NCBI GenBank assembly: GCA_040754075.1 | Contig: JBFMDH010000005.1 | Span: forward strand, 124,001-188,000 | From: Acidobacteriota bacterium | GTDB lineage: Bacteria; Acidobacteriota; Blastocatellia; UBA7656 | Reading direction: 5' to 3' | DNA length: 64,000 bases | The notes under the pieces: model-generated | Told to the model about the DNA's origin: nothing | The model's database searches: none | Seen by the model: only the letters and a program-made list of their open reading frames with translations | Shown here: piece by piece, positions 51,399 to 58,575 of the stretch | Numbering within the stretch: the first letter of the stretch is position 1 | Layout: every line of letters begins with the position of its first letter | Made by a program: the position numbers and the translations under genes

Positions 51399-51779
51399 GC
51401 GCTTTCTCCTTTCATTTTCTCCATCTCTTTTTGATTTGAAATTTCTTTCTCTAATCGTTGCGACATTTTCTATGCCTGTAGATATGGCGCGCCAATATGG
51501 GCTATTTCGCCAATCCGCCGCCAAAGTCGCGCCAATAACTTCATCACACCATTGCGATAATTCATTCAACACTTTTCACTGTCCATCCGCGCTCTCCATC
51601 ACTCAAAAAATCCGTTCGCAACCTAGTGCGGGAAGTTCGCGAAATGTATCAAAAATTTTTTTCAATTTTTTTTCGGCGCTTTGATTTGTCTGCCGCGTGT
51701 GCAGGCGGATAAATTGACGCGCCTTGCGAAGCCGTATAGAGTGCTCCTTGAAAGGTATGAACAATCAAGAGGTGATGGA
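51399..51779. other. divergent intergenic region
   Basis: About 380 bases between the secreted-protein operon and the macrodomain gene. It is AT-rich with a poly-T tract near 51655-51675. It must hold promoters for both directions. No gene is supported. Confidence 0.5.
51714..51740 (+). promoter_or_regulatory. possible promoter for the macrodomain gene
   Basis: TTGACG at 51714-51719 and TATAGA at 51735-51740 are good consensus matches, but the 15-base spacer is short. Transcription would begin near 51747, giving a 33-base leader before the ATG at 51780. Confidence 0.4.
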
Positions 51780-52298
51780 ATGAAAGCGCGCATGGAGGTT
51801 ATACAAGGCGACATCACGAAATTGCAGGTCGATGCGATTGTCAATGCTGCAAACAGTTCATTGCTTGGCGGGAGCGGCGTTGATGGCGCGATTCATCGCG
51901 CGGCAGGCGCAGACCTGCTGCACGAATGCCGTTTGCTTGGCGGTTGTAAAACCGGGCAGGCAAAAATCACCAAAGGCTATCGCTTGCCCGCGAAATTCGT
52001 CATTCACACGGTTGGTCCCGTTTGGCATGGCGGGCATCAACGAGAGCCTGAATTGCTGGCTTCCTGTTATCGGGAAAGTTTAAAACTGACGGTTGCCAAT
52101 CAAATTCTGACCATCGCTTTCCCGGCAATCAGTTGCGGCATTTATGGCTATCCAATTCCACAAGCCGCGCGCATCGCCATTAATGAAGTGCAGCAGTTCC
52201 TTGCCAACCAGCAAACGCTTCAAAAAGTTTTCTTCATCTGTTTTGAAGATGCGGTGTTTGAAATTTATCAGCAAGCCTTTGAAGAGTTGACTGCCTAG
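51780..52298 (+). CDS. macrodomain O-acetyl-ADP-ribose deacetylase-like protein
   Basis: 172 residues from the ATG at 51780, with AGAGG about 8 bases upstream. The macrodomain is nearly the whole protein: [37 protein letters not shown] gives the ADP-ribose pocket with its NAAN and GGVDGAIH motifs, and VIHTVGPVW and [12 protein letters not shown] follow. Bacterial members remove ADP-ribose from proteins or O-acetyl-ADP-ribose. The longer frame upstream overlaps the promoter and is rejected. Neighbours give no hint of function. Confidence 0.9.
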
Positions 52299-54136: not shown

Positions 54137-54502
54137 TCAGTGAAACGACGTTCCCGACATGGCATAGTAAAAAAATCCGGTGCAGGCGGCATTGAGTAAA
54201 AAAACAATGGCTGCGCCGATGATGATGCCTTTGGCGGTCTGTTTTTTACCTTTCATAAAGGCGATGATTACTGCCGGAATCATATACAACAACTGGCTGA
54301 CACCGACAAATAAAATCAACATCAGCGGTATCTCTTCATTGAACAGATAGGTAACGACAATCATCGGAATCTGAAACAGGTGAAGTAACAAAGATATTAT
54401 AAAACCGATTAGCGCGTGACCTTCGTTTGGTTGCGCAGACATCGGCGCGCCGTAATAGGGATAAGGTGGTTGATTCGAGGGGTAAGGATTTTGTTCAGAC
54501 AT
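54137..54502 (-). CDS. small membrane protein with Pro/Tyr-rich N-terminus
   Basis: 121 residues from the ATG at 54502 with GGAAGGAAG upstream. The first 30 residues are rich in Pro, Tyr, Asn and Gln (SEQNPYPSNQPPYPYYGAP). Three hydrophobic segments follow (LIGFIISLLLHLFQIPMIVV, LMLILFVGVSQLLYMIPAV, GIIIGAAIVFLLNAACTG). Its start overlaps the end of the radical SAM gene by 8 bases, so it is translationally coupled to it. Family not recognised; such small Pro-rich membrane proteins are often subunits or adaptors. Its placement suggests a role with the lipid enzymes. Confidence 0.7.
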   Translation of the reverse strand: MSEQNPYPSNQPPYPYYGAPMSAQPNEGHALIGFIISLLLHLFQIPMIVVTYLFNEEIPLMLILFVGVSQLLYMIPAVIIAFMKGKKQTAKGIIIGAAIVFLLNAACTGFFYYAMSGTSFH

Positions 54503-55919
54503 ATCGGCTTCCTTCCTGCATCTCACGCAAAGCGGCAAGTCGCGTGCGCTCCAAATCATCGCGGTAAAACAGATTGTAAGTATCAAACGGAATCAAACGC
54601 CCGTCCGGGTGAACAATGTGAACGCACGATTTTTTCACCGAGCGCACATCGAACGAATAAGCATCAATAAATTCCATAATGATCACGCGAAAGAGATTTT
54701 CGTAACTGATGCCTTCGGGCACTGCCACTTGTGGCAAACAACAGAGCAAATCGCCGAGCGTCGTCGCCGAAGATTCAGGTGAATGATTCGTGGCAAAGAG
54801 TTTGAAAATGTAGTCGCGAATCGCCTGGTCTTCTTCATAGACAATCGTATTGCGGCTGCCGTTAATCAACACCTGCGGGTCAATCATCCCTGTAAGCGGC
54901 ACGACTTCGCCGCCGAGTTTCAACGCATAAGCCATCGCCAGACTATCCGGGTGACACGGCACAGGAATAATATCTTCGGGGCGAAACACCTGAGTTTGTT
55001 CGAGAATTTTCCGGCGCACTTCGGTAAGCGTCAGCCGGTCGGTCGCCGGATTGAATTGCTCTAATCTTCCCGCTGCTTGAATCGGTTGCAAAGTTACGCC
55101 ACGCACCGAGGGTTGTTTCAGCGCGTATTCGATGATGCGTCCGATTTCATTGTCGTTCAGCCCTTTTTTCAAGGTCACCACCAGCGTTGTCGAAATGCCT
55201 AGCTGATTCAAACGTTTCAAAGCCTGCTCGCGTATATCGCGCAAATCTGCGCCTCTGAGTTCCATCAACACTTCGCGCTCGAATGAGTCGAACTGTAAAT
55301 AGATTTCAAAGCCCGGCATGTAACTCGCCAGACGTTCGGCAAAGGCTTCATCTTTGGCAATGCGAATGCCGTTGGTGTTGAGCATCAAATGGCGAATCGG
55401 ACGGGCGCGCGCCATATCCATCACTTCAAAAAAATTCGGATGGGTGGTTGGTTCACCGCCCGATAGCTGCACGACATCCGGCTCGCCTTCGTTGCGCACT
55501 ACCGCATCAAGCATCTTTTCGATTTCCTCAAGCGAGCGATGCGTTAAACGCGCGGGGCTGCTCGACGCATAACAAATCGGGCATTCGAGATTGCAATAAT
55601 CGTTGATTTCAACCAGCGTCAAACACGAATGCTGTTCGTGGTCTGTGCATAAACCGCAATCATACGGACAGCCCCATCGCACGGGCGTGTTGTAAATCAC
55701 GGGCATTTCCGGCGGTTTAATAAACACTTCGCGAGAACGGCGATAATAATCGACATCTGTGGCGATGAGCGTTTTTTCAAATCCATGTTCGGCGCAGCGT
55801 TTAGTTAAGAAAACTTTGTCGTCTTGAAAAATAATTTTGCCTTCGACTTTGCGATAACAGACCGAGCAAATCGAAATCGCAATATCATAATAGAGATACG
55901 GGCGCACGCGCTCTGTCAT
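54495..55919 (-). CDS. radical SAM protein resembling tetraether/membrane-spanning lipid synthase (Tes-like)
   Basis: 474 residues from the ATG at 55919, which overlaps the stop of the Lgt-like gene (ATGA). Near the N-terminus is a CSVCYRK zinc-like motif, then RCAEHG, then WGCPYDCGLCTDHEQHSC near residue 80-97, giving extra cysteines for accessory iron-sulfur clusters. The radical SAM motif is CNLECPICYASSSP near residue 110, followed by VVQLSGGEPTTHPNF. This order is that of the archaeal tetraether lipid synthase Tes (MJ0619 type) and its bacterial relatives, which join lipid tails by C-C bonds. Acidobacteria of this group make membrane-spanning iso-diabolic acid lipids. The substrate here is inferred from these relatives. 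Confidence 0.78.
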   Translation of the reverse strand: MTERVRPYLYYDIAISICSVCYRKVEGKIIFQDDKVFLTKRCAEHGFEKTLIATDVDYYRRSREVFIKPPEMPVIYNTPVRWGCPYDCGLCTDHEQHSCLTLVEINDYCNLECPICYASSSPARLTHRSLEEIEKMLDAVVRNEGEPDVVQLSGGEPTTHPNFFEVMDMARARPIRHLMLNTNGIRIAKDEAFAERLASYMPGFEIYLQFDSFEREVLMELRGADLRDIREQALKRLNQLGISTTLVVTLKKGLNDNEIGRIIEYALKQPSVRGVTLQPIQAAGRLEQFNPATDRLTLTEVRRKILEQTQVFRPEDIIPVPCHPDSLAMAYALKLGGEVVPLTGMIDPQVLINGSRNTIVYEEDQAIRDYIFKLFATNHSPESSATTLGDLLCCLPQVAVPEGISYENLFRVIIMEFIDAYSFDVRSVKKSCVHIVHPDGRLIPFDTYNLFYRDDLERTRLAALREMQEGSRYV

Positions 55920-56668
55920 AAACTCTCGGACTCCTTGATGTGAAACAGATACGGTAAATCCCTCGCATAATACACGAGCGCCAGCAAGCACGCCCATTGA
56001 ATTGCCGTAAGTCCGCCAAACGCCACCGCCGGTTTAATGAAATCTATCAACAGACGAAATCCCATATAACCGACCATAAACAATTTGAAGGGGTCGCCTT
56101 CGCGATGGGCGTGTTGTGACAGGCGATAAATCCAAAAGCCTAGCAACAACAAAAACCCCGCTTCATAAAGTTGAGTCGGATGCCTGCTTACCCCATCACC
56201 GAAATCAATACCCGTTGGTAAAGCGGTTGCGATGCCATAGGTTTCATCGCCCAAGCCTGAAAGAAAACAACCGATGCGTCCGATGGCGATGGCAAGCGTC
56301 AAGGGAATGGCAAACAAGTCGCCGGTGCGGCGCGTGATGCCGAGAATTTTTTTGGCGATTTCAACGGCGAGGAATCCGCCGAGGAGTCCGCCAACCACGG
56401 TTTTGCCTGCCATCAAATAAAATGGGTTGTTCCAGTTCTGCAAAGTGAGCGCGGGATTTTCCAACCAGTAGAGCAGTTTGCTGCCGAGCGCCGCGCCGAC
56501 CGCTGCGGCAACCACAATCCACAAACGATTGCTGCTGTCGAGATGGTCGCCCGTGTTTTTGCGCAAACGCAGGTAGATGCGAAAGCCGATGAAATAGGCG
56601 AGACTTTCAAAAATCCAGTGCGGGTGGATTTGCAGGGAAGCGATTTTAAAATAGACAGGAAAGGTCAT
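55916..56668 (-). CDS. prolipoprotein diacylglyceryl transferase-like membrane protein
   Basis: 250 residues with about seven membrane segments. The Lgt fold is indicated by GAALGSKLLYWLENP near residue 58, GRIGCFLSGLGDETYG near 130 and RHPTQLYEAGFLLLLGFW near 160. Canonical Lgt transfers diacylglycerol from phosphatidylglycerol to lipoproteins; the conserved Arg and Tyr-Glu around HPTQLYE are present. The GRIGCFLSG loop differs from the usual GRIGCFLNGC form, so this may be a paralogue with an altered lipid substrate. It heads the operon with the Tes-like enzyme. A second, orthodox Lgt may exist elsewhere in the genome. Confidence 0.8.
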   Translation of the reverse strand: MTFPVYFKIASLQIHPHWIFESLAYFIGFRIYLRLRKNTGDHLDSSNRLWIVVAAAVGAALGSKLLYWLENPALTLQNWNNPFYLMAGKTVVGGLLGGFLAVEIAKKILGITRRTGDLFAIPLTLAIAIGRIGCFLSGLGDETYGIATALPTGIDFGDGVSRHPTQLYEAGFLLLLGFWIYRLSQHAHREGDPFKLFMVGYMGFRLLIDFIKPAVAFGGLTAIQWACLLALVYYARDLPYLFHIKESESL

Positions 56669-56877: not shown

Positions 56878-58575
56878 TTAACGCCCTTGCGCCTGTTTCA
56901 AATAATCCTGTGCCTCGGCAACTTCTTTTATGCCGGCGTCGGCTTTCGACCAAATCTTCAAAAGCTTGGAATAGGCTGTGGTAGCCGCTTTGGTGTCGCC
57001 GCTCTGATCGGCGGCGCGCGCCGCGCCGATGAGTGAACGAACGCGATTGGGTTGTCGGGCAAGCGCCACCGAAAATGCCTGCGCCGCTTCTTTCGGGCGA
57101 TTCGCTCGCAGCAGGATTTCGCCATACAGTTCATGCGACGGTTTGATCAGCGAAGGCGGACCCGATGGCGGCGACATATCTTCTTCCAAGGCGGTTGCCC
57201 GTTTCATCAACTCGATTGCCTGTTCGTGCGCGCCTTTCATCGAAGCGGCAAAGGCGCGCACTTCGAGTTGCATAATCTCAATGCTTTTTGCCTGTTGCCC
57301 GTTAAATAGTTTTGCGACTTCGGCGAGTTCCGCCGCGTTTCTTTCCGCCTCATCGGTTTTATTCATCGCCGCTGCCGCAAGCCCATTGATAAAGGTCGTC
57401 AAATAACGGAAACGTTGCGCCGTGGGTCTAACGGTTTTCGCATCACTTGAACCCATCGTGTGACCTGCGTGTTCACCGGATGCGGGCGCAGGGGTCGCGG
57501 CTTTTGCAGTCGATTTTGGCATGGCGTCAAATATTTGTTTGGCATCGCTCCAACGCTCGGTGCCGACAATCAAATCCGCCGACATGGTCACATAATTGTT
57601 TTCGTAATAATTCGGGCGCATATCGTTTTCATAATTTGATTTGCGCATGCTTTCGCGCATGACTTCCATAGTCTCTTCGGCTTTTTTGTAGCGCCCCTGT
57701 TCAAGGTAGGCATAATTCAACCAGTGGAGGCTGTGATAATCGCGCAAGTAAATCGGCAGATTTTTGCGCTTCACCCAGACATCAGAAGCTTCCCACGCCG
57801 ATTCGTTCGAGGTGGCGACATTATCCCACATGCCGAGTTGCACGAAGATATGCGAAGGCATATGGCGGGCGTGCGATGATTCGGGGGCGATTTGCGCGTA
57901 GCGATATGCCGCAGGCAAGGCGAGGATGGCGTGTTCCGGGTCATCGAATGCATGAATGATGAAATGCGCCGCGCCCGGATGATTGGGATTTTTTTGATAG
58001 ACTTCCAGAGCGATGGCTCCGGCTTTCATCTGTCGCGCATAGCCTTTATCACCGGCGCGCACGGTGCCAAGCAGCGACAGCGAATAAAAAATTGCTGCCT
58101 CAGAATCTTTCGGATAGTCATTGTAAATTTTTTCCATCGCCGCCGCGTAAGCTTTATCGCGTGTGAGTTTGTCGCCTTCGCCGTAAAGCGCGCGCGCCGC
58201 GCCGATGAAAGCGCGTTCTTTATCGGTCAGATTTTTCGCATCTTGCAATTTGGTTAGCACTTTGCGTCCCGATTCAGTGTCCTGTTCAGACCACAGCGGA
58301 TGGTTATGCGCCATGGCTTCGCCCCAGTAACCCATCATAAAATCGGGTTCGATTTTCGTAGCGGCGCGAAACGCTTCGAGGGCTTCTTCAAACCAGAAGG
58401 AATGCAATGCCGCGACGCCGCGAATGAAATGTTTCTGGGCTTCGGGGGATTTCGCAGAAGTTGGAAAATCAACACTGCCAAGCGTCGCCTGTTGGGCGTT
58501 GGTTTGCGAAGTCAAACTCAACGTCACCAGCAAGGCAACCATCAAGGTGATTGAGCGAAAGTGTTTGATAAGCAT
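56878..58575 (-). CDS. secreted tetratricopeptide repeat protein
   Basis: 565 residues with a signal peptide (LMVALLVTLSLTSQTNAQ). TPR-like helices run through the chain, first AQKHFIRGVAALHSFWFEEALEAF near residue 45. The middle has HPGAAHFIIHAFDDPEHA and HARHMPSHIFVQLGMWD, a histidine-rich motif known in this TPR family (HxxxH...HMPSHIF) that may bind metal. The C-terminal part is again helical (QAFSVALARQPNRVRSLIGAARAA). Such proteins are common in Acidobacteria and Bacteroidetes with unknown role. It appears monocistronic. Confidence 0.83.
   Translation of the reverse strand: MLIKHFRSITLMVALLVTLSLTSQTNAQQATLGSVDFPTSAKSPEAQKHFIRGVAALHSFWFEEALEAFRAATKIEPDFMMGYWGEAMAHNHPLWSEQDTESGRKVLTKLQDAKNLTDKERAFIGAARALYGEGDKLTRDKAYAAAMEKIYNDYPKDSEAAIFYSLSLLGTVRAGDKGYARQMKAGAIALEVYQKNPNHPGAAHFIIHAFDDPEHAILALPAAYRYAQIAPESSHARHMPSHIFVQLGMWDNVATSNESAWEASDVWVKRKNLPIYLRDYHSLHWLNYAYLEQGRYKKAEETMEVMRESMRKSNYENDMRPNYYENNYVTMSADLIVGTERWSDAKQIFDAMPKSTAKAATPAPASGEHAGHTMGSSDAKTVRPTAQRFRYLTTFINGLAAAAMNKTDEAERNAAELAEVAKLFNGQQAKSIEIMQLEVRAFAASMKGAHEQAIELMKRATALEEDMSPPSGPPSLIKPSHELYGEILLRANRPKEAAQAFSVALARQPNRVRSLIGAARAADQSGDTKAATTAYSKLLKIWSKADAGIKEVAEAQDYLKQAQGR

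Follow-up and report, generated by a model that had tools for sequence, protein, structure and literature searches.

A conserved pair of an Lgt-fold paralogue and a Tes/TrsS-superfamily radical SAM protein, usually accompanied by a small membrane protein, in an Acidobacteriota bacterium

What is made by an operon in which a paralogue of the prolipoprotein diacylglyceryl transferase Lgt is joined to a radical SAM protein resembling tetraether synthases (Tes)? The question is raised by a 64,000-nucleotide stretch of Acidobacteriota DNA (GCA_040754075.1, contig JBFMDH010000005.1, positions 124,001 to 188,000), here called the window, for which a first, sequence-only reading had described an overlapping operon of three genes. 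This operon was borne out by the sequence. At the positions given in that reading and all on the minus strand, it encodes an Lgt-fold paralogue of 250 aa (55916..56668), a radical SAM protein of the Tes/TrsS superfamily with 474 aa (54495..55919), and a small membrane protein of 121 aa (54137..54502). The Lgt-like gene ends with TTA TGA, and the ATG of the resulting ATGA (55916..55919) is the start codon of the radical SAM gene, giving an overlap of 4 bases. The radical SAM gene ends with TAT GTC TGA at 54495 and the small-protein gene starts with ATG TCT GAA at 54502, an overlap of 8 bases (54495..54502). For two of the genes we adopted downstream starts because these are conserved in relatives; automatic ORF calls choose earlier ones. 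Judged by the overlaps, the three genes would be translationally coupled. Pfam searches of the window returned LGT with 98.3 bits (cut-off, 24.9), Radical_SAM with 87 bits, and an HMPTM zinc ribbon with 58 bits; for the small protein no significant family was found in Pfam or NCBIfam.

A genome scan identified 22 loci encoding radical SAM proteins 59 to 75% identical to that of the window, in Bacillota, Bacteroidota, Pseudomonadota, Cyanobacteriota, Chlorobi-type, and Acidobacteriota genomes, and in most of them the Lgt paralogue was encoded directly upstream of the radical SAM gene. As this order recurs in Bacillota, Bacteroidota, Pseudomonadota, Cyanobacteriota, and Acidobacteriota, the arrangement is not due to chance, and both the joining of an Lgt paralogue to a Tes-superfamily radical SAM protein and the strong conservation of this neighbourhood in relatives were confirmed. 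Profile searches in the host's class detected the radical SAM protein (>830 bits) in 14 of 162 genomes and the Lgt paralogue (>210 bits) in the identical 14; the next-best Lgt, with 118 bits, was a member of a diverged pair, and a fifteenth genome (G041) contained a radical SAM fragment alone, at a contig end. Both enzymes were likewise found in the same 40 of 249 genomes of the genus of Flavobacterium branchiophilum and in the same 4 of 13 genomes of a Paenibacillus-type genus, and none of these three counted sets included a genome with one enzyme alone. The odds of coincidence are 10^-20, 10^-46, and 10^-3 for the three sets, respectively, if genomes are taken as independent, an assumption by which they are overstated; the pattern nevertheless repeats in three phyla. 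The pair was kept also where the genes are unlinked, as in F. branchiophilum (L146, 301 bits) and in G009 with a 2.5-kb gap, and distances among the radical SAM proteins track those among the Lgt paralogues (Mantel r of 0.82, 0 of 9999 permutations). Diverged Lgt-radical SAM pairs were present in an M. avium plasmid, in Nonomuraea, and in a genome of the host's order (G007). The patchy distribution, to which a Shewanella form found in 3 of 129 Shewanella-type genomes adds, together with the high identities across phyla suggests horizontal transfer. In the genomes counted the two enzymes are obligate partners, with the small membrane protein as the usual third component, and we regard it as very likely that this enzyme pair forms one functional unit.

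The radical SAM protein had been taken for a Tes or membrane-spanning-lipid synthase, an identity that did not withstand closer analysis. It shares with Tes (MJ0619; profile match to 7tol) and bacterial Mss proteins the fold and three ligand sets, namely a rubredoxin-like site (C18, C21, C42, H45), an N-terminal [4Fe-4S] cluster site (C84, C88, C91, H94), and the radical SAM CX3CX2C motif (C109, C113, C116), all of which were invariant in the 35 window-type proteins of our ligand table. The AF2 model (pLDDT 82.6, residues 372 to 401 unreliable) superposed on GDGT-MAS (7tom) with a Z score of 40.5 over 395 residues. However, the protein is 30% identical to Tes and scored 268 bits with the Tes model NF045702 (cut-off, 450). 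Its best NCBIfam match was the TrsS model NF045646, with 319 bits also below the cut-off of 490. In a midpoint-rooted FastTree phylogeny of 101 proteins, in which MJ0619 alone stood for archaeal Tes, the window clade was placed outside the Tes clade. On one side of a split with a support of 0.999 stood the window clade, a methyltransferase-linked group, and the diverged relatives with an Lgt link; on the other were MJ0619, bacterial Tes-like proteins, and Mss-like proteins of about 700 residues from the host's class. Of the two findings named in the sequence-only reading as refuting it, a position outside the Tes clade was obtained, and a neighbourhood not conserved in relatives was not.

In the C-terminal cluster domain of GDGT-MAS, for which Met439 (labile) and Tyr459 have been named, the lipid radical is trapped through formation of a carbon-sulfur bond (PMC9433317). 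From their conservation, C338, C455, and C470 are the probable cluster ligands of Tes: these three residues, Met439, and Tyr459 were all kept in 27 of 27 Tes-like and 15 of 15 Mss-like proteins. Among the window-type proteins, C338 is C, A, or S, C455 is S in 31 of 35 proteins, C470 is D or E and Tyr459 is I in all 35, and position 439 is M in 25 and V in 10. We therefore dropped membership in Tes/Mss on the grounds of the phylogeny, the Tes score, and the loss of the C-terminal-cluster cysteines and Tyr459. The Lgt-linked group has four further conserved cysteines (322, 393, 394, and 432), possible ligands of a different centre, of which the Shewanella form lacks 393 and 394. The NF045702 cut-off was passed by proteins in 34 of 297 Acidobacteriota genomes. 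The host genome itself encodes a 711-aa Tes/Mss-type radical SAM protein (C2:183116-184678, L003; L070:6892-9027) with the full set of C-terminal cluster ligands and without the N-terminal cluster cysteines, which adjoins a second radical SAM gene (L070:5664-6767) and is near-universal in relatives. By sequence, this protein is a likely candidate for the host's synthase of membrane-spanning lipids of the iso-diabolic-acid type.

The Lgt paralogue was compared with E. coli Lgt (5azb, PF01790) by a family alignment of 25 sequences, a residue table of 28 proteins, and an AF2 model (pLDDT 90.7), which superposed on 5azb with a Z score of 15.3 (239 aligned residues, 4.8 A). It has the same fold and the GRxG signature motif and keeps R143, G154, Y235, and R239 (window R131, G145, Y201, and R205), as do all 28 proteins of the table. 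In contrast to Lgt, Y26 is replaced by H (window H17) and N146 by C (C134) in all 28 proteins, R246 by K (K212) in 27, H103 is never H (V, I, L, or A; window V92), and E243 is E or D (window D209). E. coli Lgt depends on six residues (Y26, H103, R143, N146, G154, and R239), of which R143, G154, and R239 are kept, and the score with the lgt equivalog TIGR00544, 42.7 bits, is below the cut-off of 118.9. The roles described for E. coli Lgt are contact with and activation of phosphatidylglycerol for R143 and R239, and contact with phosphatidylglycerol in the first site for Y26 (PMC4728403). A catalytically dead Lgt, as suggested by H103V and N146C, was considered and rejected, as the host's other Lgt, described next, also deviates at both positions, so that inactivity does not follow from them alone. 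H103 and N146 vary among accepted Lgts too (PMC13251419). A further Lgt, whose presence the sequence-only reading had left to a genome check, was indeed found in the host (C5:57010-57759, L001, 189.5 bits) and carries F in place of H103 and C in place of N146 of E. coli Lgt. The rules for essential residues in E. coli hence do not hold in this phylum, and we make no claim of lost lipid chemistry. Loss of the periplasmic head domain was also dropped as a diagnostic feature, since the Lgts of Shewanella are similarly short in this stretch (20 versus 18 residues in the same alignment). Y26H and N146C are shared with MSMEG_5408, the second Lgt homologue of M. smegmatis, which was presumed to have low Lgt activity in a 2026 paper that says nothing of a radical SAM partner (PMC13251419); related pairs occur in the M. 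avium plasmid.

The small protein of the window has a Pro/Tyr-rich N-terminus, three predicted transmembrane helices, and a cysteine, Cys107, fifteen residues from the C-terminus. Its last helix and tail (GIIIGAAIVFLLNAACTGFFYYAMSGTSFH; 54140..54229, minus strand) come just after a basic loop, KGKKQTAK. Homologues were found in eight of the loci (L009, L010, L015, L017, and L031 to L034). The last 22 residues of the small protein included a cysteine in 23 of 24 loci with a small membrane protein directly downstream (one locus counted twice) and in 30 of 30 Flavobacterium loci; the proteins are otherwise very divergent, with 54 to 133 aa and two to three predicted helices. As a background, 25 of 61 other proteins ending in a transmembrane helix at these loci, spurious ORFs included, had a cysteine in the last 22 residues. 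In small proteins picked for carrying the cysteine, a basic loop leads into the last helix, the helix shows the consensus [LIV]-[GLN]-x-[GSA]-x-C, and an uncharged tail of 3 to 14 residues closes the protein; the mean number of K+R in this set was 3.1 in the loop versus 0.17 in the tail. According to the positive-inside rule, the cysteine is therefore predicted to face outward. The motif is no standard lipobox, and no mature domain follows it. Tandem copies of the small protein occur in L020, L034, and L158, the one in L014 is without the cysteine, and at the diverged G007 locus a 160-aa protein ending in LVLAGTCFAIVMAYQ is encoded between the two genes. As four genomes of one Acidobacteriota family encode both enzymes but no small protein next to them, the small protein is frequent but not universal. 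The main reason for tying the small protein to the Lgt paralogue is their joint absence from the form found in Shewanella and Colwellia (L022, L024, and L025), which is nested inside the Lgt-linked clade and in which the radical SAM gene is followed by genes for a DUF547 protein and a DVU_1556-like methyltransferase.

We propose that the operon specifies a horizontally mobile membrane module of two enzymes and a small protein. Since the two catalytic, phosphatidylglycerol-contacting arginines are invariant, the Lgt paralogue may still bind phosphatidylglycerol. With the small protein as the acceptor, it would transfer diacylglyceryl to the cysteine, or couple lipid there in another way; this cysteine is predicted to lie where the last helix reaches the extracytoplasmic side, in the leaflet of the Lgt active site. 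The radical SAM enzyme, having the Tes fold without the chain-coupling cluster site, would carry out a different radical modification, most likely on a lipid chain or on the small protein, and would yield something other than a membrane-spanning (iso-diabolic or tetraether) lipid. Use of phosphatidylglycerol by the Lgt paralogue to lipidate the small protein's cysteine is plausible, though we hold it tentatively and at less than an even chance; whether the radical reaction modifies lipid or peptide we can state with low confidence. The more far-reaching version, in which a non-lipoprotein diacylglyceryl transferase acts on the C-terminal transmembrane cysteine of tandem small proteins, a second modification is added by the radical SAM enzyme, and such lipidated peptides have spread horizontally across phyla, appears rather unlikely as a whole. 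Lipidation of the cysteine is opposed by the four genomes lacking the small protein beside the operon, the cysteine-free protein in L014, the deviation from a standard lipobox with no mature domain after it, the replacement of three residues indispensable to E. coli Lgt (Y26, H103, and N146), and the background frequency of 25 in 61.

Several of these observations would also be accounted for if both enzymes modified free phospholipid, with the Lgt fold extracting or presenting phosphatidylglycerol and the small protein being merely a structural subunit. Phospholipids are bound in the tunnel of Tes (PMC9433317), on which the window model superposes, the arginines of the phosphatidylglycerol site of Lgt are retained, and the small protein is missing from some loci. 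Yet it is left unexplained why the C-terminal cysteine is nearly invariant and why the small proteins occur in tandem and diverge fast, and we rate this explanation as possible but doubtful. The proposal of the sequence-only reading that an Lgt-fold protein was recruited for handling the lipid substrate is possible.

A further explanation starts from the exchange of partners. The ArsM-like, DVU_1556-like methyltransferase accompanies the radical SAM protein not only in Shewanella and Colwellia but also in a sister group with 37% identity, in Mycolicibacterium, and in haloarchaea, and MerA-like or ArsC-like neighbours occur at some methyltransferase-linked loci. A TrsS-type enzyme might accordingly place its radical product on a small acceptor, such as a metal(loid), thiol, or selenol, which is then capped by the methyltransferase or, in the window, by diacylglyceryl from the Lgt paralogue. 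Close tree relatives of the window protein do pair with DVU_1556-like methyltransferases like TrsS, whereas the window operon has the Lgt paralogue and the small membrane protein and no DVU_1556-type methyltransferase beside it. This explanation seems to us quite improbable, as genes for resistance or metals are not recurrent neighbours of the Lgt-linked operons in the loci examined, DVU_1556 and TrsS have no known function, and the small proteins would again be unexplained. A role in metal resistance was rejected for the Lgt-linked operons, the hints being confined to the methyltransferase-linked sister group. In that group (about 37% identity; L065, L066, L071, and L072 in G011, G025, G017, and G037, respectively) the partner is a DVU_1556-like methyltransferase, several loci include a gene for a MerA-like flavoprotein, and L065 also contains a phosphate/sulfate-permease-like gene. 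On a plasmid of Halorarius halobius (L062:5965-8128), a haloarchaeal TrsS-like radical SAM gene is followed by a methyltransferase gene, with genes of the low-molecular-weight phosphatase family, DsrE, and thioredoxin in the vicinity.

The Lgt paralogue could instead be a second prolipoprotein transferase for ordinary lipoproteins next to an unrelated radical SAM gene, as its Pfam family and fold would permit and as several Lgts are present in some bacteria (PMC13251419). The exact co-occurrence of the two proteins even when their genes are unlinked, the low TIGR00544 score, and the distinct signature of invariant residues make this very improbable. A bacterial tetraether or membrane-spanning-lipid synthase operon, despite the shared superfamily, fold, and three conserved ligand sets, is the least credible explanation in view of the position outside the Tes clade, the score below the Tes cut-off, the replaced C455, C470, and Y459 and variable C338, the separate Tes/Mss-type protein of the host, and the spread through Flavobacterium, Pedobacter, and Paenibacillus, which to our knowledge are not known for membrane-spanning lipids.

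The interest of the operon lies in its conservation more than in the Tes idea, and it appears to encode a membrane-modification system not yet described. New are the combination of two known superfamilies and the unrecorded small-protein component: in the open-access literature, outside which most subscription journals lie, we found no description of the Lgt-radical SAM pairing, and within the same scope searches on TrsS function, on DUF547 with radical SAM proteins, and on MSMEG_5408 yielded nothing on it. If our proposal of a lipid-coupling module is correct, it would provide the first function for an Lgt-fold enzyme outside lipoprotein maturation; we know of no other. It would also split off a large group now easily confused with tetraether synthases. 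BLAST surveys for Tes homologues have used low identity limits of >20% (PMC8941075) and could catch proteins like that of the window, leading to misleading assignments of tetraether producers. The presence of the pair in cultured Flavobacterium and Paenibacillus relatives makes it open to genetics.

In the window, the operon is preceded on the same strand by a gene for a TPR protein (56878-58575) and followed on the other strand by a glucose/sorbosone dehydrogenase-like gene, neither of which recurs in the relatives examined. Upstream of this neighbourhood, at 51681-52298, the window also encodes a Macro-domain protein (Pfam Macro, 156 bits).
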